DNA of 34,797 nt, taken from the NCBI GenBank assembly GCA_945860285.1, contig CAMAQB010000033.1, positions 1 through 34,797 on the forward strand, in the 5' to 3' direction. The stretch's first letter is position 1; each line of letters begins with the position of its first letter. The stretch is from Akkermansia muciniphila. GTDB lineage: Bacteria; Verrucomicrobiota; Verrucomicrobiia; Verrucomicrobiales; Akkermansiaceae. The notes under the pieces are model-generated. The model worked only from the letters and a program-made list of their open reading frames with translations, was not told where the DNA came from and did not search any database. A program made the position numbers and the translations under genes. Positions 10,877 to 22,119 of the stretch are shown one piece after another.

Positions 10877-12631
10877 ATGCTGGTCATGACGGCACGATTG
10901 CTTCTCCTCTTGTCCACCGCGATGGCAGCCCTGGCAGCCGATCGCCCGTATCCCGTCGATCCCGCCTCGCAGCGACAACCGGGGGTGCCGCAGGGCAAGG
11001 TGAACAAGTTCCATTTTTCCTCGAGCAAAATCTACCCCGGCACCGAACGCGATTGCTGGATCTATGTGCCGGCGCAATACCAGGCCGACAAGGCGGCAGC
11101 GCTGATGGTCTTCCAGGATGGCGAAGGCTACCTCAGTGAAAACGGTCCGGACAAGGCGACGATCGTTTTTGACAACCTGATTCACACCAAGGAAATGCCG
11201 GTGACCATCGGATTGTTTATCAACCCCGGCGTGGTGCCCGCACCCGGGGCCGATGCCCAACCGCGCTTCAACCGCAGTTTTGAATACGATGATTTCTCGG
11301 CGAAATACGCGACATTTCTGATCGATGAATTGCTACCCGAAGTTCGCAAAAGCTACAACATTTCCGACCGACCTGATGACCGCGGCATCTGCGGCGCATC
11401 CTCCGGCGGCATTGCGGCGTTCACTGCGGCCTGGCACCGGTCCGATGCGTTTCGACGGGTCTATTCGATGATCGGAACATTCGTCGGACTCCGTGGTGGA
11501 GATGAAATTTCCACGCTGATCCGCAAGACCGAGCCAAAACCGCTGCGGGTGTTTTTGCAGGACGGCAGCAACGACAACAACATCTACTGTGGCGACTGGT
11601 GGCTGGCGAATCAAATGATGGAGCGCTCATTGTCCTTCTCGGGTTACGAGGTCAACCATGTCTGGGGCGAAGGCCCGCATTCGCATAAGCACGGTGGATC
11701 GATCCTGCCCGAGGCGATGCGCTGGTTGTGGAAGGATTCCAAAAAACCCGTGACCACCCACTACGACAACTGCAAGGGCAAAGCCCGGGATCTGCTGATC
11801 GATGGCGAAAACTGGGAGCTGGTCAGCAAAGGCCACGGCTTCACCGAGGGCCCGGCAATCGGACCCGACGGCAGGGTCTTTTTCACCGACATCCCCAACA
11901 GCAAAATCCATCAGATCGACAAGGACGGCGTGGTCTCGGTGTTTCTCGAGAACACCAACAACACCAACGGCCTTGCTTTTGGTCCCGATGGCCGGCTGTA
12001 TGGATGCCGCGCGGGCAGCAAGGAAATCGTTTCGTGGGACCCCGCCAGCAAGATGGAAAAAGTCCACGCCACAGGCATCGATGCCAACGACCTGGTGGTC
12101 TCGTTTGATGGCACGATCTATGCCACCGAACCGGCGAAAAAATCCGTGTGGATCATCCGTGCGAACGGCGAAAAATTGTTAGGCTCCGACCAGTTCCACG
12201 GTGTCAATGGGTTGAAGCTCACCCCCGATCAAACGCGGCTCGAAGTCGCCGACCCGAATGGTCGATTTGTGTATTCGGCCACGCGGAAAAGTGATGGAAC
12301 GCTGAGCAACATCCAGCCGTACCATCATCTGCATCTTCCCAGTGCCGGTGTCGATCCGCGCAGCGGAGCCGATGGCATGGCCGTTACCCGCGACGGCTGG
12401 TTGCTGGTCGCCACCGTCATGGGCGTGCAGATCTGCGACCAGCCAGGCCGCGTCAACCTGATCGTGCCAATGCCTCCCGGCGCGCGTTTCCCCTCCAACC
12501 TCTGCTTCGCCGGCGATGACCGCAAAACCCTGATCGCCACCTGCGGCGACTCCGTCTATCGCCGCAAAACCAACATGACCGGCGTACTCTCCTGGGAGAA
12601 ACCCATCAAACCCCCGCAGCCGGGATTGTAA
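10877..12631 (+). CDS. Secreted esterase / SMP-30 lactonase fusion
   Basis: A 584-residue exported protein with a signal peptide (about 1-20, ending ALAA). Domain 1 (about 40-290) is an alpha/beta-hydrolase of the enterochelin-esterase type: WIYVPAQY, then GASSGG with nucleophile Ser175, and a late HSHKHGG His. Domain 2 (about 310-575) is an SMP-30/gluconolactonase beta-propeller: GFTEGPAIGPDGRVFFTD, NGLAFGPDGRLYGC, GVNGLKLTPD and PSNLCFAGDD. The combination suggests hydrolysis of a sugar ester or lactone outside the cytoplasm. The gene is divergent from the AddA-like gene. Its 3' end is 20 bp from the 3' end of the convergent tracrRNA. Confidence 0.85.
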   Translation: MLVMTARLLLLLSTAMAALAADRPYPVDPASQRQPGVPQGKVNKFHFSSSKIYPGTERDCWIYVPAQYQADKAAALMVFQDGEGYLSENGPDKATIVFDNLIHTKEMPVTIGLFINPGVVPAPGADAQPRFNRSFEYDDFSAKYATFLIDELLPEVRKSYNISDRPDDRGICGASSGGIAAFTAAWHRSDAFRRVYSMIGTFVGLRGGDEISTLIRKTEPKPLRVFLQDGSNDNNIYCGDWWLANQMMERSLSFSGYEVNHVWGEGPHSHKHGGSILPEAMRWLWKDSKKPVTTHYDNCKGKARDLLIDGENWELVSKGHGFTEGPAIGPDGRVFFTDIPNSKIHQIDKDGVVSVFLENTNNTNGLAFGPDGRLYGCRAGSKEIVSWDPASKMEKVHATGIDANDLVVSFDGTIYATEPAKKSVWIIRANGEKLLGSDQFHGVNGLKLTPDQTRLEVADPNGRFVYSATRKSDGTLSNIQPYHHLHLPSAGVDPRSGADGMAVTRDGWLLVATVMGVQICDQPGRVNLIVPMPPGARFPSNLCFAGDDRKTLIATCGDSVYRRKTNMTGVLSWEKPIKPPQPGL

Positions 12632-12651: not shown

Positions 12652-12689
12652 AAAAAAAAGATTCCCCAACGGCCCGAAGGCCGAAGGGG
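12652..12689 (-). terminator. tracrRNA intrinsic terminator
   Basis: A hairpin with CCCC/GGGG and CGGCC/GGCCG stems and a UUCG loop (12664-12689), followed on the minus strand by AATC and eight T residues (12659-12652). The GC hairpin is also the last structural element of the tracrRNA. Confidence 0.9.
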
Positions 12690-12748
12690 TGACTTTACAG
12701 ATTCAAACCAATGGTAAAAATCTTTACCGTGGCTGACCTCCTGATTTC
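12652..12748 (-). ncRNA. tracrRNA
   Basis: Read 5' to 3' on the minus strand, it begins with the anti-repeat (12748-12727), which pairs with the repeat at 21 of 22 positions; the exception is a G-U wobble, and there is no bulge. A nexus hairpin follows (12728-12713, GGTAAA-GATT-TTTACC) whose first two bases overlap the anti-repeat. After a linker comes a terminal hairpin (12689-12664) with 4 bp, a UU/UU internal loop, 5 bp and a UUCG loop, then AATC and eight U residues. Length is about 97 nt, usual for type II-C. It pairs with the minus-strand form of the repeat, so it fixes crRNA polarity. Confidence 0.93.
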
Positions 12749-12754
12749 GCGAGA

Positions 12755-12783
12755 AATATGCTTGCGCTATGGGTCTCTGTCAA
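12755..12783 (-). promoter_or_regulatory. tracrRNA promoter
   Basis: The minus strand carries TTGACA (12783-12778), a 17-bp spacer and CATATT (12760-12755). The expected start is 12749-12747, the first base of the anti-repeat, so the transcript has no leader. The element lies in the gap between the tracrRNA and cas9 and must overlap the cas9 promoter region, which could couple expression of the two. Confidence 0.8.
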
Positions 12784-15800: not shown

Positions 15801-16163
15801 TACAACTACCAGCTTGCAAGTAAAACGCCGCCCATGAGAGCGATAGCTGCGGCTAGGGAAGAAGAAAATTGGACCTTAATGGATGGAACCTTTAAATTTG
15901 AGTTCAGTTTATGGAAAAATTCTCGGTTTGTTTGCGTCGATAAAAAAACGCAGAAACGAATTGAAGGATGTTACTGTGGATTGGATCGCAGCACAGGCAG
16001 TATCACTTACAATTTACCTGACGATTTTGGCTATAAGCAATTGAACAGAATTTCAACGAAAACTGGGCTATCCGTTTTCCAAAAGGTAACGGCGGACCGC
16101 TTAGGCCGCATCTTTCCCGTCAAACATGAAAAACGCATATGGCATGGCGAGGTCTGCATTTGA
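12816..16163 (+). CDS. cas9: CRISPR-associated endonuclease Cas9 (type II-C)
   Basis: A 1115-residue RNA-guided DNA endonuclease. RuvC-I is FCGIDIGIGSCGIALI with Asp33. The Arg-rich bridge helix spans about 88-110 (RRQKRLMRRVLARRASR). RuvC-II is RIHIEVARD with Glu566. HNH is LQVDHIQPRSRS with Asp649 and His650, plus the matching Asn673 (NQNKGN). RuvC-III is KHHAVDAL with His797/His798 and Asp801. All catalytic residues are present, so it should cut both strands. The C-terminal roughly 300 residues form the wedge/PAM-interacting part. Size, three-gene operon and absence of csn2 or cas4 indicate II-C. The ATG at 12816 lies in AT-rich DNA without a clear ribosome-binding site. The stop overlaps cas1 by 25 nt. 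Confidence 0.97.
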   Translation: MTPHYIVGNAAPLTKLPKTFPTQIDENLFCGIDIGIGSCGIALISHSKAKPTIKGFEKLPGAISFMGVRAFDVPEIKEKSGIVLKNPERRQKRLMRRVLARRASRMKAVKALLIEAKILPADYSPMQDAWRGRHEAATPWKWRVEALNRKLSDWEFAVILMHYAKRRGFKSAKKNDLESKGSEGGTLQSSRANHAALANYLTVADMLTRDRRFAIDNSAPSVETKKRNRDGQYIAMVTRADVIHEIAQVFAMQRQLGNSHASIDFENEFLAVLNAQRPLQDPIKLLEDCPFVPTEKRGSLMSPSFELARALQKLNTIKLSQPDKTKAFLSSWILQHGGYHAFVSQFGKKSRITWADLRKMWSIPIEITFDDLKAPLSKKKKDGSLANELSQADKEKYDFSNRSNTKGCAQGTCLLRTVLGETLWSLVLRDGYEALDDIAFCLTFYEVIEEEGSATTMLGALAQKNLAPQFYDAIANDLRSQKPSLHVFSGSCSTSSKALRQIIPFLMLGDVYSLAMEKAGFNHVKTDFSLEKITNPIVKAVLREAIKQIAHVFHEIGSLPGRIHIEVARDVGKSMEERNELERGLKTRTDAKNANRQKVAELRNIDVTAVTEDELLRYELYLEQGGLCPYSGLSLPNNENIYGADLQVDHIQPRSRSHDNSYDNRCLVYASQNQNKGNRTPYEWLSGSDSSWQEFQTRIAAMRGLRRGKRNRLLNETFAENEQDFLERNLNDTRYISRVLLAYVQDFYRIAGEEPLDKGATRRVFSRPGQMTSLVRRAWGLENLKKNVLGNRVGDKHHAVDALVCACLSEGNAQWITKISQAYASSNHLLTLRNLQEPWSNFRNDVVDALNQITVSRREQCGAGGPLHKETNYSLEIDPDGKEVAYKRESLVGKNASNKPVANFTTLGDLEAIRGIHHERNQWLKDSLTNWIKTGSKIDHVHLPRDPQGCLIYKVSVRQDKIKNLRKQNQGHVVSGTMVRCDVFSKKGKFYLVPVYNYQLASKTPPMRAIAAAREEENWTLMDGTFKFEFSLWKNSRFVCVDKKTQKRIEGCYCGLDRSTGSITYNLPDDFGYKQLNRISTKTGLSVFQKVTADRLGRIFPVKHEKRIWHGEVCI

Positions 16164-17068
16164 GTAAAGCTGCTTATTTGCGCATTGATCACCGCAACCT
16201 TGTGATCGACTTTCGGGGCGAAGAAAAAGGCTGTGCGCGTTTGCCATTGGAGGACATTGCCTACCTTATTCTCGATTCCCAGGAAGTGAGTATTACCGGA
16301 GCCGCTCTTGCTGCCATGAGCGAACATGAAATCATGGTTCTTGGCGTAAATGATCGCCACCTGCCTGCATGGACATCTTTTCCCTGGGGGCTTCACCATC
16401 GGCAAGGAGAAGTCACAGCTCTGCAATTGAATTGCTCCACTCCAGTGAAAAAGCGAATATGGCAACACATCGTCAAAGAAAAAATTCGCTCCCAAGCATG
16501 GGCCCTACACTCCTGCGGCGCTAAAGGTGCCGACACAGTGCGATGCTGGGCTAACGCAGTAAAATCAGGCGATACCAACAATGTAGAAGCCCGCGCGGCA
16601 ATCTTGTACTGGGAAGAAATTTTTGCTCCCCGCCTTTTCCGCCGCCATGATGACGATCTTCCGAATGCTTTATTGAATTATGGTTATTCCCTCATCCGTG
16701 CCGGTTTAGCTCGGCATCTCTGCGCTGCGGGTTTTATTCCAGTCCTTGGTGTCCATCATTGCTCCATGAGCAATGCTTTCAACCTGGCTGACGACCTTAT
16801 TGAACCTTATCGACCCTTGGTAGATTATTTTGTCCTTCGCATACTAGGCGACAGGCATTCTTCTGAGAAGCTGAACCTCGATGACAGGCGCGCCTTGACA
16901 CAGATACTTGAAGCCACCGTCCTGCTGGGTGAAGAGGAAATGACACTTTTTGCCTCGATCAAACTCGTTGTTCAATCCCTGAAACACGCCATTAAGTCTC
17001 GCGATCCCGAAATGCTAATCTTTCCAGATTTAAAACCATGCAAGGAGACCTCAGGCGTATGTGGGTGA
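16139..17068 (+). CDS. cas1: CRISPR integrase Cas1 (type II)
   Basis: A 309-residue Cas1 that, with Cas2, integrates new spacers. The start MAWRGLHLSKAAYLRI is typical of type II Cas1. The metal-binding residues are the Glu in NNVEARAAILYWEEIF, the His in LGVHHCSMSNAFNLADD, and the Asp in that last segment. The ATG at 16139 overlaps the end of cas9 by 25 nt, and the end overlaps cas2, so the three genes are translationally coupled. Length fits the family. It is complete, so adaptation is probably functional. Confidence 0.96.
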   Translation: MAWRGLHLSKAAYLRIDHRNLVIDFRGEEKGCARLPLEDIAYLILDSQEVSITGAALAAMSEHEIMVLGVNDRHLPAWTSFPWGLHHRQGEVTALQLNCSTPVKKRIWQHIVKEKIRSQAWALHSCGAKGADTVRCWANAVKSGDTNNVEARAAILYWEEIFAPRLFRRHDDDLPNALLNYGYSLIRAGLARHLCAAGFIPVLGVHHCSMSNAFNLADDLIEPYRPLVDYFVLRILGDRHSSEKLNLDDRRALTQILEATVLLGEEEMTLFASIKLVVQSLKHAIKSRDPEMLIFPDLKPCKETSGVCG

Positions 17069-17364
17069 TCGTTTTTTTTGACTTACCAGTCGGCACAAAA
17101 CCGCAACGTACTTCGGCTGCGCGCTTCAGAAACGATCTTCTCAATGATGGCTATATGATGATCCAGTTTTCAGTCTATGCGAGAATGTGCCGCGCCCAGG
17201 AGGCAGTAGACAAGCATATCAAGCGAATTCAAGGGTTTTTGCCCGATACCGGATCAATCCGTGCCTTGCAAGTTACGGATAAGCAATACAACCGCATGTC
17301 AATCCTACTAGGAAAACGCGTTTTGGAAGAGTGTCAAGGCGATCAACAATTACTTTTTTTTTAA
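17059..17364 (+). CDS. cas2: CRISPR adaptation protein Cas2
   Basis: A 101-residue Cas2, the structural partner of Cas1. It starts MWVIVFFDLP, the conserved first strand with its Asp, and ends DQQLLFF as in many type II Cas2 proteins. An upstream ATG at 17038 would add seven residues, but AAGGAG at 17042-17047 is well placed for the ATG at 17059, which matches the family start. The gene overlaps the cas1 stop by 10 nt. Its last codons are a T-run, and the stop is two bases from the palindrome that separates it from the array. Confidence 0.94.
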   Translation: MWVIVFFDLPVGTKPQRTSAARFRNDLLNDGYMMIQFSVYARMCRAQEAVDKHIKRIQGFLPDTGSIRALQVTDKQYNRMSILLGKRVLEECQGDQQLLFF

Positions 17365-17366
17365 AT

Positions 17367-17411
17367 CCAATGCCAGCAATGCCATATTTCATATGGCATT
17401 GCTGACATTGG
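17367..17411. repeat. 45-bp palindrome forming the CRISPR leader
   Basis: Two 21-bp arms (17367-17387 and 17391-17411) around a 3-bp loop, with a single mismatch that is a G-T wobble on the minus strand. The outer arms begin CCAATG and end CATTGG. The right arm ends exactly where repeat 1 begins. Neither strand has a T-run after the hairpin, so it is not a standard intrinsic terminator. It fills the leader position between cas2 and the array. Confidence 0.9.
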
Positions 17412-20400
17412 ATTGTAGCGACTTGAAATCAGGAGGTCAACCACGGCACGTGAGTGTTGACGGTTTTGTATGCGCTAATTGTAGCGACTTGAAATCAGGA
17501 GGTCAACCACGGCACTCCGTCAATGCTCCGCTGTTTCGTGACAATTGTAGCGACTTGAAATCAGGAGGTCAACCACGGCCGTTACATATACCGGACCCTT
17601 GTCCGTCCCATTGTAGCGACTTGAAATCAGGAGGTCAACCACGGCAAAGAGTTCTGCCTCTTCGTCGATTGGTAAATTGTAGCGACTTGAAATCAGGAGG
17701 TCAACCACGGCTCTTCGATTTTGGCATCCATTTTGGCATTGCATTGTAGCGACTTGAAATCAGGAGGTCAACCACGGCAAGAACGCTCCTCCTGTAACGC
17801 TACGGCGAATTGTAGCGACTTGAAATCAGGAGGTCAACCACGGCGCGGCTTACTGTTCCTGTTACGATTGCTTTATTGTAGCGACTTGAAATCAGGAGGT
17901 CAACCACGGCCGGCAAGTAGTTGTCGCCAGTTTAGCAAAAATTGTAGCGACTTGAAATCAGGAGGTCAACCACGGCTGGGCGGGTGCTGGTGCGGCGGCG
18001 GTCTGTATTGTAGCGACTTGAAATCAGGAGGTCAACCACGGCTTGCCGTCTCTCCGTGCTGTCACGCTGTTAATTGTAGCGACTTGAAATCAGGAGGTCA
18101 ACCACGGCGATCGACCCTGCCGACACCGGGGACTTGACATTGTAGCGACTTGAAATCAGGAGGTCAACCACGGCTCTTTAAATAGTTGGTCAAATCCGTT
18201 CTTGATTGTAGCGACTTGAAATCAGGAGGTCAACCACGGCTGTGAAAAAACTATCCTTGTCTTATCCACAATTGTAGCGACTTGAAATCAGGAGGTCAAC
18301 CACGGCGTCGATTATCTACCTGGCGCAACGCTTGCAATTGTAGCGACTTGAAATCAGGAGGTCAACCACGGCTCAGATCGAGCAATGCTTTTTCGGATGG
18401 CGATTGTAGCGACTTGAAATCAGGAGGTCAACCACGGCGAAATGCCCAGCCGTTGCCGATCCGGGGTTATTGTAGCGACTTGAAATCAGGAGGTCAACCA
18501 CGGCTGGATTGTGCATATCGTTTATTGTTTATTCATTGTAGCGACTTGAAATCAGGAGGTCAACCACGGCTCATGGCATTGTCTATTTTCTGCCGGTCTA
18601 ATTGTAGCGACTTGAAATCAGGAGGTCAACCACGGCTGCGCGACAACTTGTGATTGCGATTCTGCAATTGTAGCGACTTGAAATCAGGAGGTCAACCACG
18701 GCTGTTTTCCTACTGGCAAAAGGAGCGCTGTTATTGTAGCGACTTGAAATCAGGAGGTCAACCACGGCCAACCTTGCCAGCGTTCGGATGATGTTTCGAT
18801 TGTAGCGACTTGAAATCAGGAGGTCAACCACGGCATCCAGCTCCTGGCATCGTTTACATGCAAATTGTAGCGACTTGAAATCAGGAGGTCAACCACGGCT
18901 GATTGCTCATTGTAGTAGTTTGTCGATTGATTGTAGCGACTTGAAATCAGGAGGTCAACCACGGCCGGAAGAAAAACGAGAATCTCGTAAAATAAATTGT
19001 AGCGACTTGAAATCAGGAGGTCAACCACGGCTGGAATCGGACAGCATGCCGACAAATTTTTATTGTAGCGACTTGAAATCAGGAGGTCAACCACGGCGGT
19101 TTGGTTTGCCGGGAGTCGAACCCGGCGATTGTAGCGACTTGAAATCAGGAGGTCAACCACGGCTGAATACTGTGGCCATGATGGTTAGTTAGTATTGTAG
19201 CGACTTGAAATCAGGAGGTCAACCACGGCTGTTACATATACCGGACCCTTGTCCGTCCCATTGTAGCGACTTGAAATCAGGAGGTCAACCACGGCCGGCG
19301 TGGTCGTGGCGAGTGCTGTTAGCCCATTGTAGCGACTTGAAATCAGGAGGTCAACCACGGCCCAAGCCGTCGGCCATGATTTCAGCGTAAAATTGTAGCG
19401 ACTTGAAATCAGGAGGTCAACCACGGCCGGAAGCTACACCGTCAAGCAATGGCGAAAATTGTAGCGACTTGAAATCAGGAGGTCAACCACGGCCATAATA
19501 AGCCTTTCCGCGAGTGGGTGCCTATTGTAGCGACTTGAAATCAGGAGGTCAACCACGGCAACCAAGCAAGACGAGCCGTGGATAGTTTGATTGTAGCGAC
19601 TTGAAATCAGGAGGTCAACCACGGCGCCAAGCAATGCGCCCTCAATGACCATGTTATTGTAGCGACTTGAAATCAGGAGGTCAACCACGGCCAACCCCCG
19701 TTAGCTATCTTTTTGACGTTTATTGTAGCGACTTGAAATCAGGAGGTCAACCACGGCACAAATGAGTGCATACCGTCATCCGATCTCATTGTAGCGACTT
19801 GAAATCAGGAGGTCAACCACGGCGATACCGATACCGTTCTTGACTGCGTTGTCATTGTAGCGACTTGAAATCAGGAGGTCAACCACGGCACATTTAATGC
19901 AGCACAGAAAAATGACCACATTGTAGCGACTTGAAATCAGGAGGTCAACCACGGCTTTCTCGGTCCGGTGCTGTTGCCAGTTTGCATTGTAGCGACTTGA
20001 AATCAGGAGGTCAACCACGGCATCTCCAAGCCACGGCTACAAACTGAACTGATTGTAGCGACTTGAAATCAGGAGGTCAACCACGGCCGTAAAAGTCGGG
20101 CATGATGTTGCTGATTTATTGTAGCGACTTGAAATCAGGAGGTCAACCACGGCTCTTTAACGAGCTTGGATTAGGGCTTGGCGATTGTAGCGACTTGAAA
20201 TCAGGAGGTCAACCACGGCGCTATTATCACAACCGCATCGGCAAGCTAAATTGTAGCGACTTGAAATCAGGAGGTCAACCACGGCGCGCTCGTGCAATTC
20301 CTCGATGCGCTTATCATTGTAGCGACTTGAAATCAGGAGGTCAACCACGGCCCAAGCCGTCGGCCATGATTTCAGCGTAAAATTGTAGCGACTTGAAATC

Positions 20401-21208
20401 AGGAGGTCAACCACGGCAACGTCTTGGAATACTCATACAGCCGATGAATTGTAGCGACTTGAAATCAGGAGGTCAACCACGGCCACCAGCAGAATACTAC
20501 CAAGACCTTATTGATTGTAGCGACTTGAAATCAGGAGGTCAACCACGGCAGTGTCACTCGCGGCGACATGGACAAATTATTGTAGCGACTTGAAATCAGG
20601 AGGTCAACCACGGCTCGATTTCTGCTGGCGTTATCATGGTGTGAATTGTAGCGACTTGAAATCAGGAGGTCAACCACGGCTTTATTTGTGCTGACGTGAT
20701 CATGATGTAGATTGTAGCGACTTGAAATCAGGAGGTCAACCACGGCAACCTAGCAGCGTGAGAGTTTCAATGATGAATTGTAGCGACTTGAAATCAGGAG
20801 GTCAACCACGGCTTACACAAGCGGGAGCTATGAAATGCAAATATTGTAGCGACTTGAAATCAGGAGGTCAACCACGGCCAAGCTCATATCGTTAGTCTAA
20901 CAGATTTTATTGTAGCGACTTGAAATCAGGAGGTCAACCACGGCATCCAGCGTTTCTGGCATTGGCGGCAGCGGATTGTAGCGACTTGAAATCAGGAGGT
21001 CAACCACGGCCTAGGCACTACACCCACCCCCACGACTTCGATTGTAGCGACTTGAAATCAGGAGGTCAACCACGGCCGGCGTGCTTGTCATATCTGTCCC
21101 CTTTATATTGTAGCGACTTGAAATCAGGAGGTCAACCACGGCTGTCCGCTCGCAACGCAAAAATGGATGCGAATTGTAGCGACTTGAAATCAGGTGAACA
21201 ACAAAGAC
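17412..21208 (-). CRISPR. Type II-C CRISPR array, 57 spacers
   Basis: It has 57 intact 36-nt repeats and a degenerate 58th. On the + strand each begins ATTGTAGCGACTTG and ends GTCAACCACGGC. Spacers are 30 nt, except one of 31 (17712) and two of 29 (18835, 20550), giving a 66-bp period. The tracrRNA anti-repeat shows that crRNAs are read from the minus strand. In that polarity each repeat holds TTGACC (repeat bases 29-24), 17 bp and TACAAT (bases 6-1), so transcription should start about 6-7 nt inside each spacer and give 23-24-nt guides. The degenerate repeat is at the right end, so the cas2-proximal left end is probably the growing end. Spacers at 17580/19230 and 19362/20352 recur. Repeats looked identical by eye. 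Confidence 0.98.
21173..21208 (-). repeat. Degenerate terminal CRISPR repeat
   Basis: The first 22 bases equal the repeat; the last 14 match at only 8 positions. On the minus strand the conserved part holds TACAAT and most of the promoter spacer, and the -35 becomes TTGTTC. The lost part is the segment that pairs with tracrRNA, which is not needed here because no spacer lies upstream of it in crRNA polarity. Confidence 0.9.
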
Positions 21209-21306
21209 AGACTTTACAACGACGACAGGCATCAATAAGTCATAAAGCGATCTACAGGTTCCCCGCGCGATCCTTGACAACAACAGCTCGTTTCATAATC
21301 TCGGAC

Positions 21307-22119
21307 ATGCGCCAATTTTTTGCAAATCGAGGGCTCAATCATGCGGAACATCCTGGCCGGTTTTCGGGCTCGACCACGCTTGCCTGCCTCACGTTGCTGT
21401 TGGGTTGCGTGATTTTCTCCCCACCCGTTTTCGCGGCCGAGGAGTTGGTGTTGCCCTTGCGCTTGCATCTGACCCGCGGACTTTCGCTGACCGTCAAGGA
21501 CACGAAGATGGAAGTGTGGGTGAAACCGGAGGATGTCAAAAATGTGCTTCTGCCCGAGGTCAACCGGATCTGGAAACAGGCGGACATACGTTTTTCCATC
21601 GAAAGCGTGATCGAGGAAACAGTGCCCGCATCTCCCGCGCTCGACAAGTTTCTCGCCGATGTCGCCGCGTTCAAACGCAACAATGAGGAAAAGGGCGCCG
21701 GCTCGCCTTTTCCCCTGGCGATGAAGGCTGTGGATGACAGCAAGTTTCTGCCGTCCGCCATCAACGTCTATTTTTTTCCTTATGTCGGCGAAACCCTGCA
21801 AGGTGTTTCATCGCTCGGTGGCAACCGCTTGATGGTCGGAGTCTGGTCGGACAAATCCAGCGGCGGACGCAAACCCCCGCAGAAAACGCTGCTCACCGAA
21901 CCCGAACCGATGGTCATCGGTTCGCTAGCTCGAACGATGGCCCATGAACTGGGTCACAGTCTCACCCTGCAACACCCGTCGAAACAAGACGAACCCAAAG
22001 GTCGACTGATGGGCGGTGGCAAACAAGGCTATCTGCTCACCCCCGCCGAAATCACCCAGGCCCGCAACTCGGCCGAGGAACATCTGCAAGGCGGCAAGAA
22101 AAAACGCGCCAAGAACTGA
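21307..22119 (+). CDS. Secreted zinc metalloprotease-like protein
   Basis: A 270-residue protein with a signal peptide (hydrophobic about 24-38, cleavage near FAAEE). It contains HELGHSLTLQH (His213, Glu214, His217, His223), the HExxH motif with a third His at the metzincin distance, although the usual Gly is Thr220. A following RLMGGG could be the Met-turn. It is probably a periplasmic or secreted zinc protease. The ATG at 21307 is chosen because the signal peptide follows; the frame is open back into the CRISPR array, but that part is repeat. A weak TTGACA-16-TAATCT lies at 21274-21301. Confidence 0.75.
   Translation: MRQFFANRGLNHAEHPGRFSGSTTLACLTLLLGCVIFSPPVFAAEELVLPLRLHLTRGLSLTVKDTKMEVWVKPEDVKNVLLPEVNRIWKQADIRFSIESVIEETVPASPALDKFLADVAAFKRNNEEKGAGSPFPLAMKAVDDSKFLPSAINVYFFPYVGETLQGVSSLGGNRLMVGVWSDKSSGGRKPPQKTLLTEPEPMVIGSLARTMAHELGHSLTLQHPSKQDEPKGRLMGGGKQGYLLTPAEITQARNSAEEHLQGGKKKRAKN

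Follow-up and report, generated by a model that had tools for sequence, protein, structure and literature searches.

An array of clustered regularly interspaced short palindromic repeats (CRISPR) was analysed in a DNA stretch from Akkermansia muciniphila (contig CAMAQB010000033.1 of assembly GCA_945860285.1; the whole stretch of 34,797 nucleotides (nt) is here called the window), and each of its repeats very probably also serves as promoter for the guide RNA that follows. Read on the minus strand, the whole array (17412-21208) comprises 57 exact 36-nt repeats and one degenerate copy. In every exact repeat TTGACC and TACAAT, with 5/6 matches in the -35 box and 5/6 in the -10 box, are separated by 17 base pairs (bp), and TACAAT supplies the six final bases of the repeat; a first-pass annotation had reported this arrangement at the repeat end on the minus strand, and its presence in the 57 exact repeats and the optimal spacing were confirmed. 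The motif TTGACC-N17-TACAAT was found 57 times in the window, always on the minus strand and within the array, and nowhere else on either strand. All the repeats (n = 58/58) carry TACAAT at their 3' end, and both boxes are intact in 57 of them, the remaining copy reading TTGTTC-N17-TACAAT. The 57 spacers measure 30 nt (n = 54), 29 nt (n = 2) or 31 nt (n = 1). In CRISPR RNA (crRNA) order a full promoter precedes 56 of the 57 spacers, for which the earlier claim of one promoter per spacer stands; it fails for spacer 1, which follows the damaged repeat, and no spacer comes after the last full promoter.

The locus is, from its gene content and layout, a type II-C CRISPR-Cas system, with cas9, cas1, cas2, a trans-activating crRNA (tracrRNA) gene with an anti-repeat, and a crRNA strand opposite the cas genes (Table 1). 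The best structural match of the Cas9 protein, 6JDQ, is presumably the Neisseria meningitidis Cas9. The cas9/cas1 and cas1/cas2 frames overlap and leave nothing between them, indicating an operon without a further cas gene; csn2 and cas4 were not sought beyond this operon. A single 23-nt anti-repeat was located upstream of cas9 (12726-12748, minus strand), with two differences from the repeat, both of them G-U pairs, and an Rfam search returned no match. By eye, four relatives showed a similar tracrRNA layout, in which TTGA lies about as far upstream. In the 3.70-Mb assembly, a search with nt 1-23 of the repeat at up to three mismatches hit only the array and the tracrRNA gene; the degenerate copy exceeds this limit. 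Since the anti-repeat is placed on the minus strand, this is the crRNA strand of the array, in agreement with the polarity proposed at first. Protospacers were sought as an independent check of polarity, and the array had no match in phages or plasmids; a search of viral_contigs with four spacer cores (4/57 spacers) gave 0 contigs. The boxes, the polarity, the anti-repeat and the position of the hairpin described below are read directly from the letters.

A simple promoter scan of positions 17250-21500, with a threshold of 9 of 12 matches, yielded 58 promoter-like sites, of which 57 were the repeats, against a mean of 4.1 (standard deviation 1.9) in shuffled sequence. Because the 57 copies are one duplicated sequence, the fair test is that of a single 36-mer. 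The genome background consisted of 760 kb (38 stretches of 20 kb) of the 3.70 Mb, where the exact TTGACC-N17-TACAAT did not occur (0 occurrences), and sites with at least 5/6 matches in both hexamers at 16-18 bp were found 33 times in 1.52 million positions, or about 3.5e-4 per random 36-mer on both strands. Such sites were ninefold more frequent at sense noncoding positions upstream of open frames (7/56,986) than at coding positions (18/1,323,447), which supports a promoter grammar in this species weakly, since the open frames came from a simple home-made caller.

The repeats of related systems were compared in a set made of one phylum and seven plasmid records. Cas9 relatives, the window's own genome included, were present in 19/387 genomes of the phylum, 2/10 of the genus, 12/260 of the family and 5/384 of the class, counted at each search's own cut-off and in draws that overlap, and scans of genome contigs with Cas9 and Cas1 found no relatives. 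In the 19 distinct repeats of 24 loci, the hexamer at the 3' end ranked first of 31 positions for likeness to TATAAT, with 4.37/6 matches versus 1.58 elsewhere, and 16 of the 19 repeats had at least four matches there; when the comparison was restricted to 10 repeats below 80% identity, the values were 4.10 and 1.53. The best mean -35 match over the 24 loci started at repeat position 9 and gave a lower peak (3.3/6). These counts, like the pooled spacers treated below, exclude four loci where no array was found (L040, L044, L045 and L090) and three with an incomplete repeat consensus (L050, L057 and L060). The 12 loci of the TTGTAG repeat group have a weak -35 (3/6) and a TG before the -10 in nine cases, whereas in the other 12 the -35 has five or six matches in 10 loci and TG occurs in only one. 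It looks like lineages exchange two promoter types, -35/-10 and TG-extended, although the loci are few and related.

The 3' end of the repeat is not accounted for by its partner RNA. No complement to the last 13 nt was present upstream of the anti-repeat: in the four systems with known repeats, 9-12 of the 13 positions mismatched, so that tracrRNA pairing fails to explain that end. A longer anti-repeat, serving RNase III in lineages with a weak -10, was considered and rejected, as the mismatches there (9 and 10 of 13) were close to those in the strong ones (12 and 10); one near relative (G742), which has no known repeat, was left out of this comparison. The degenerate "extra" repeat at the oldest end of the array has six changes, all of them in the first 14 nt in crRNA polarity, within the tracrRNA-pairing half, and two of them hit the -35. 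Its predicted duplex with tracrRNA falls to -19.5 kcal/mol, compared with -46.4 for the full repeat, and its TACAAT is intact. This loss of pairing with retention of TACAAT would support the promoter reading. In the available portions of Feussner 2025 (PMC12080349), most mutations of II-C extra repeats lie in the first 15 nt, as in the window, and the extra repeat is suggested to keep its promoter for the first spacer.

The reading that we consider highly likely as a whole is that of a II-C locus in which a two-part repeat, combining a tracrRNA-pairing part with a housekeeping promoter, would give one start per spacer, possibly with a terminator at the end. Once transcribed, nt 1-23 of the repeat would pair with tracrRNA, and the last 13 nt, with the -35 embedded in the pairing half, would form the housekeeping promoter. 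Each repeat would start a transcript about 5-7 nt into the next spacer, yielding a ready-made crRNA 5' end and a guide of 23-26 nt. The tracrRNA would be made from its own TTGACA promoter, starting at about the first anti-repeat base, so that its 5' end would need little or no trimming. Transcription would run toward the growing end by cas2, where the hairpin may stop it before it becomes antisense to cas2-cas1-cas9. Promoter activity, start sites, termination and crRNA 3' ends are the elements that we infer. Interference between tandem crRNA units, as first suggested, is a reasonable expectation. What appears new in this array is that the cas2-proximal promoter would drive no spacer, that the promoter of the first spacer is damaged, and that a predicted 21-bp hairpin lies directly against the growing end.

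Of the alternatives, the one rated highest grants promoters to the repeats and holds that mature crRNAs need RNase III all the same, with transcripts that cross many units and 3' ends made by this enzyme; we give it a little better than an even chance. The predicted repeat:tracrRNA duplex is continuous over 23 bp, and only one minus-strand terminator-like site was listed by a simple scan within the array, both of which fit this view. According to the accessible text of Dugar 2013 (PMC3656092), RNase III makes the 3' end of Campylobacter jejuni crRNAs even though each has its own promoter. On the other side, N. meningitidis was reported not to require RNase III, according to a citation in the available part of the Riemerella anatipestifer paper. 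The first-pass annotation had stated that promoter elements in Neisseria and Campylobacter repeats make crRNA maturation independent of RNase III: repeat promoters are indeed established or proposed in II-C systems, but the independence is contradicted for Campylobacter by that portion of Dugar 2013 (PMC3656092), and the statement was too broad because this enzyme produces the 3' end of the crRNA in C. jejuni. The 23-24-nt guides proposed there are plausible by comparison with what is accessible on C. jejuni and Clostridium cellulolyticum, although a fair range from 30-nt spacers is 23-26 nt.

The hairpin in the gap between cas2 and the array may be an array-end terminator that shields cas2-cas1-cas9 from antisense transcription. 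Of 6000 60-mers drawn at random from this genome, only one attained its folding energy (-34.8). Hairpins with at least 12 pairs that start no more than 9 nt from the array were found at the growing end of 12/25 loci, the window included, versus 90/4000 random stretches, a background drawn from random own-genome sequence and not from the intergenic DNA of each relative; this criterion replaced a laxer one, which 2318/6000 stretches passed. The 25 loci leave out L057 and include L060, and 7 of them have no usable leader-distal flank; at the 18 usable leader-distal ends, taken as control, one hairpin was found, whether or not degenerate extra repeats were counted. Hairpins clustered by lineage, being present in 11/12 loci outside the TTGTAG repeat group and in 1/13 inside it. 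As for the plasmid records, terminator-like hairpins lie 8 nt from the array in Pasteurella multocida (L113) and 6 nt from it in Limnohabitans (L115), an unannotated Tistrella locus (L110) has one at 19 nt, and Ilyobacter (L112) has only a short one; the rest of the seven named loci had no repeat (L116) or no clear array beside the cas genes (L111 and L114).

The same hairpin could instead be a DNA palindrome for spacer integration, anchoring the leader, or the terminator of the cas operon, a proposal that we regard as possible and rate somewhat below even. It lies exactly at the integration end, and its near absence from the TTGTAG group, whose repeats also look like promoters, is in line with such a role. 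Two features of the window weigh against termination of the array: the tail is weak, with a short T-run (ATTT and then an A-run), and the site was left unlisted by the terminator scan, which asks for five T in eight. Among 16 loci, which were selected for a visible hairpin and for which the tail and pairing counts are therefore descriptive, three (L049, L052 and L110) lack TTT within 8 nt past the stem. Conversely, the 8 nt after the stem on the crRNA strand contain TTT in 13/16 and TTTT in 9/16, and G-U pairs exceed A-C mismatches on that strand by 10 to 4, a weak excess. In the opposite orientation the hairpin leads into the repeat. Between loci, the first 20 nt of flank at the growing end have a median of 7/20 positions in common, with a maximum of 13/20, and arms that differ to this extent are unlike a protein binding site. 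A leader palindrome is in print for Riemerella, in whose paper, as far as its accessible text goes, the repeats are said to have no promoters. In searches of Creative Commons-licensed literature, no title or abstract opening among those listed dealt with a growing-end hairpin in II-C systems, which may nevertheless be in print. If the hairpin is a terminator, it would explain how dozens of promoters avoid antisense transcription over their own cas genes.

A wider model, which we advance tentatively and place only just short of an even chance, is that the II-C array of this bacterial class and of some unrelated hosts is a closed transcription cassette, in which each repeat has its promoter and a single intrinsic terminator, shared by all, makes up the leader itself. 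Each new spacer would be inserted downstream of the last promoter and ahead of the terminator; however long the array became, its many promoters, all facing one way, would not read antisense into cas2-cas1-cas9. The promoter types (-35 plus -10, extended -10 and decayed -10) would be swapped among lineages under an unchanged tracrRNA architecture.

Several observations weigh against the repeats acting as promoters. The closest relative (G389, Cas9 68% identical) favours the promoter reading, with TTGACC-17-TATAAT in its repeat, whereas G491 (58%) has TTGACC and G739 (50%) has TTGCCC at 17 bp from a repeat end that reads TAAAAC; the fourth near relative, G742, has its Cas9 in two pieces and no array was found. 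An end without the usual last T is thus present in two of the three near relatives that have arrays (L039 and L089 arrays), and the quality of the -10 varies even within a group of four close systems. Both of these arrays have the same tracrRNA layout as the window. The first-pass annotation had taken the full -35/-10 pair as evidence of a promoter, and the hexamers are real, but the -35 is uninformative on its own, because it lies within the tracrRNA-pairing half and persists beside a weak -10, and its conservation is no proof of promoter use. Repeat position 8, the first T of the -35, stands opposite a tracrRNA G and is T in all four arrays; since this T persists in repeats with a weak -10, the wobble need not reflect selection on a promoter, and it is ambiguous as a sign of selection at the DNA level. 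The upstream enrichment of promoter-like sites in the genome is only about twofold over other noncoding DNA (8/137,363), resting on 7 and 8 sites, and may be due in large part to base composition. The repeat also lacks the extended -10 known from the accessible descriptions of C. jejuni, C. cellulolyticum and N. meningitidis, there being no TG before the -10. Finally, no purine preference was seen at spacer positions 6-8, either among the 55 distinct spacers of the window or in a pool of 390 distinct ones from 24 arrays, and a selection of start sites within spacers was rejected on this ground. Position 5 had 0.54 purines versus 0.49 in the pooled spacers (p = 0.033, uncorrected), an effect absent in the window alone; position 1 purines also deviated in the pool (p = 0.038), as did base composition at positions 1, 3, 7, 11 and 14, all uncorrected for multiple testing.

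That the promoter look is incidental, the repeat ends owing their form to RNA pairing, to recognition by Cas9 or to integration by Cas1-Cas2, and the array being read as one long precursor from a promoter beyond its leader-distal end, is unlikely: the -35 in the 23-nt pairing half, retained in G491, and in G739 in the form TTGCCC, despite a poor -10, the constant T at position 8, a conserved end that could be the integration site, and the lack of a repeat promoter in the available text on Riemerella speak for it, whereas the TATAAT-like last hexamer across divergent repeats has no tracrRNA complement, C. jejuni crRNAs start inside spacers (PMC3656092, accessible portion), and no minus-strand promoter-like site reading into the array was present in 21142-21500 at the threshold of 9/12. 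A leader promoter of the II-A type does not fit either, because the growing end lies downstream of transcription.

Repeat-embedded promoters are described as normal in II-C systems, and as general in the portions available of Feussner 2025 (PMC12080349) and Hoikkala 2021, the former describing an own promoter in each II-C repeat and the entry of spacers at the last repeat; structures upstream of arrays were examined there, and a growing-end hairpin is not dealt with in these portions. Within the excerpts consulted, C. jejuni repeat promoters were shown by differential RNA sequencing and primer extension, with crRNAs beginning at spacer position five (Dugar 2013, PMC3656092); those of N. meningitidis are cited in PMC7038990 and in the Riemerella paper; and repeat promoters were proposed for C. 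cellulolyticum (PMC7038990), Flavobacterium columnare and F. psychrophilum. The dissenting case is R. anatipestifer, where, in the part of the paper available, no repeat promoter was found. The window shares with the C. jejuni system (PMC3656092, as excerpted) the minimal cas set, a -10 in the 3' part of the repeat and a separate tracrRNA, and probably the start inside each spacer; C. jejuni repeats end in GGTAAAAT, an extended -10, whereas the window has a -35 and lacks the TG. The Pasteurella plasmid repeat (L113) shares the end GCTACAAT with that of the window, but has by eye a TG one base before TACAAT and 3/6 -35 matches at 17 bp, the reverse of the window. In C. cellulolyticum (PMC7038990, from its accessible text) the array is likewise opposite the cas genes, the last nine repeat bases are promoter-like, and each crRNA has 23-26 nt of spacer; unlike the window, the -10 is extended, and the choice between processing and internal starts was left open there. 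The EH CRISPR-Cas9 system (PMC10281378, same limitation of the source) has the same gene order, a tracrRNA upstream of cas9 and a predicted promoter and terminator, and a repeat promoter is named there as one possibility; its two-repeat array at a contig end differs from that of the window. Since II-C repeat promoters have already been described, the promoter-repeats of the window are a further case of a known mechanism, in its -35/-10 version.

With 57 spacers, the array is a long and clear example of a known and little-dissected way of producing guide RNAs, and it would add a canonical -35/-10 version to a mechanism described, in the text available, mainly with extended -10 boxes. Close relatives with a decayed -10 offer a natural comparison on the need for repeat promoters.

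Table 1. Positions in the window of the CRISPR-Cas features and of the predicted RNA elements.
Feature	Position	Strand	Remarks
cas9, 1115 amino acids	12816-16163	+	best solved-structure match 6JDQ, output label "Cas9"
cas1, type II	16139-17068	+	
cas2	17038-17364	+	
Predicted tracrRNA	12652-12748	-	anti-repeat, stem-loops, hairpin, run of eight Ts
Predicted tracrRNA promoter, TTGACA-17-CATATT	12755-12783	-	by eye; expected start ~12748, first anti-repeat base
Hairpin, 45 nt, predicted 21-bp stem, loop of 3	17367-17411	-	cas2-array gap; begins at first base after repeat
CRISPR array, identical repeats	17412-21142	-	57 copies of 36-nt repeat, each TTGACC-17-TACAAT in crRNA polarity
cas2-proximal repeat	17412-17447	-	full promoter motif, -35 17435-17440, -10 17412-17417; no spacer downstream; points into end hairpin
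Leader-distal degenerate "extra" repeat	21173-21208	-	6 changes; TACAAT kept

Two non-adjacent pairs of spacers (13/28 and 30/55 in crRNA order) were nearly duplicated, one pair being identical and the other differing only at the last base, which suggests repeated acquisition from one source or recombination. Spacer 32 (19098-19127) resembles what we take to be the T-arm and acceptor end of a tRNA, and had no match elsewhere in the genome at up to three mismatches. In one genome of the comparative set (G006), the II-C locus has a second array close by (L051, 19293-19989), with 12 copies of a repeat 26 nt or more in length, presumably of type I-E by its look. Farther from the array, two overlapping frames on the minus strand (289-1366) look, from their translation, like a broken transposase of the IS110 kind, and a large plus-strand frame (10877-12631), whose 3' end faces that of the tracrRNA gene, resembles what we assume to be an esterase joined to a gluconolactonase-like domain.

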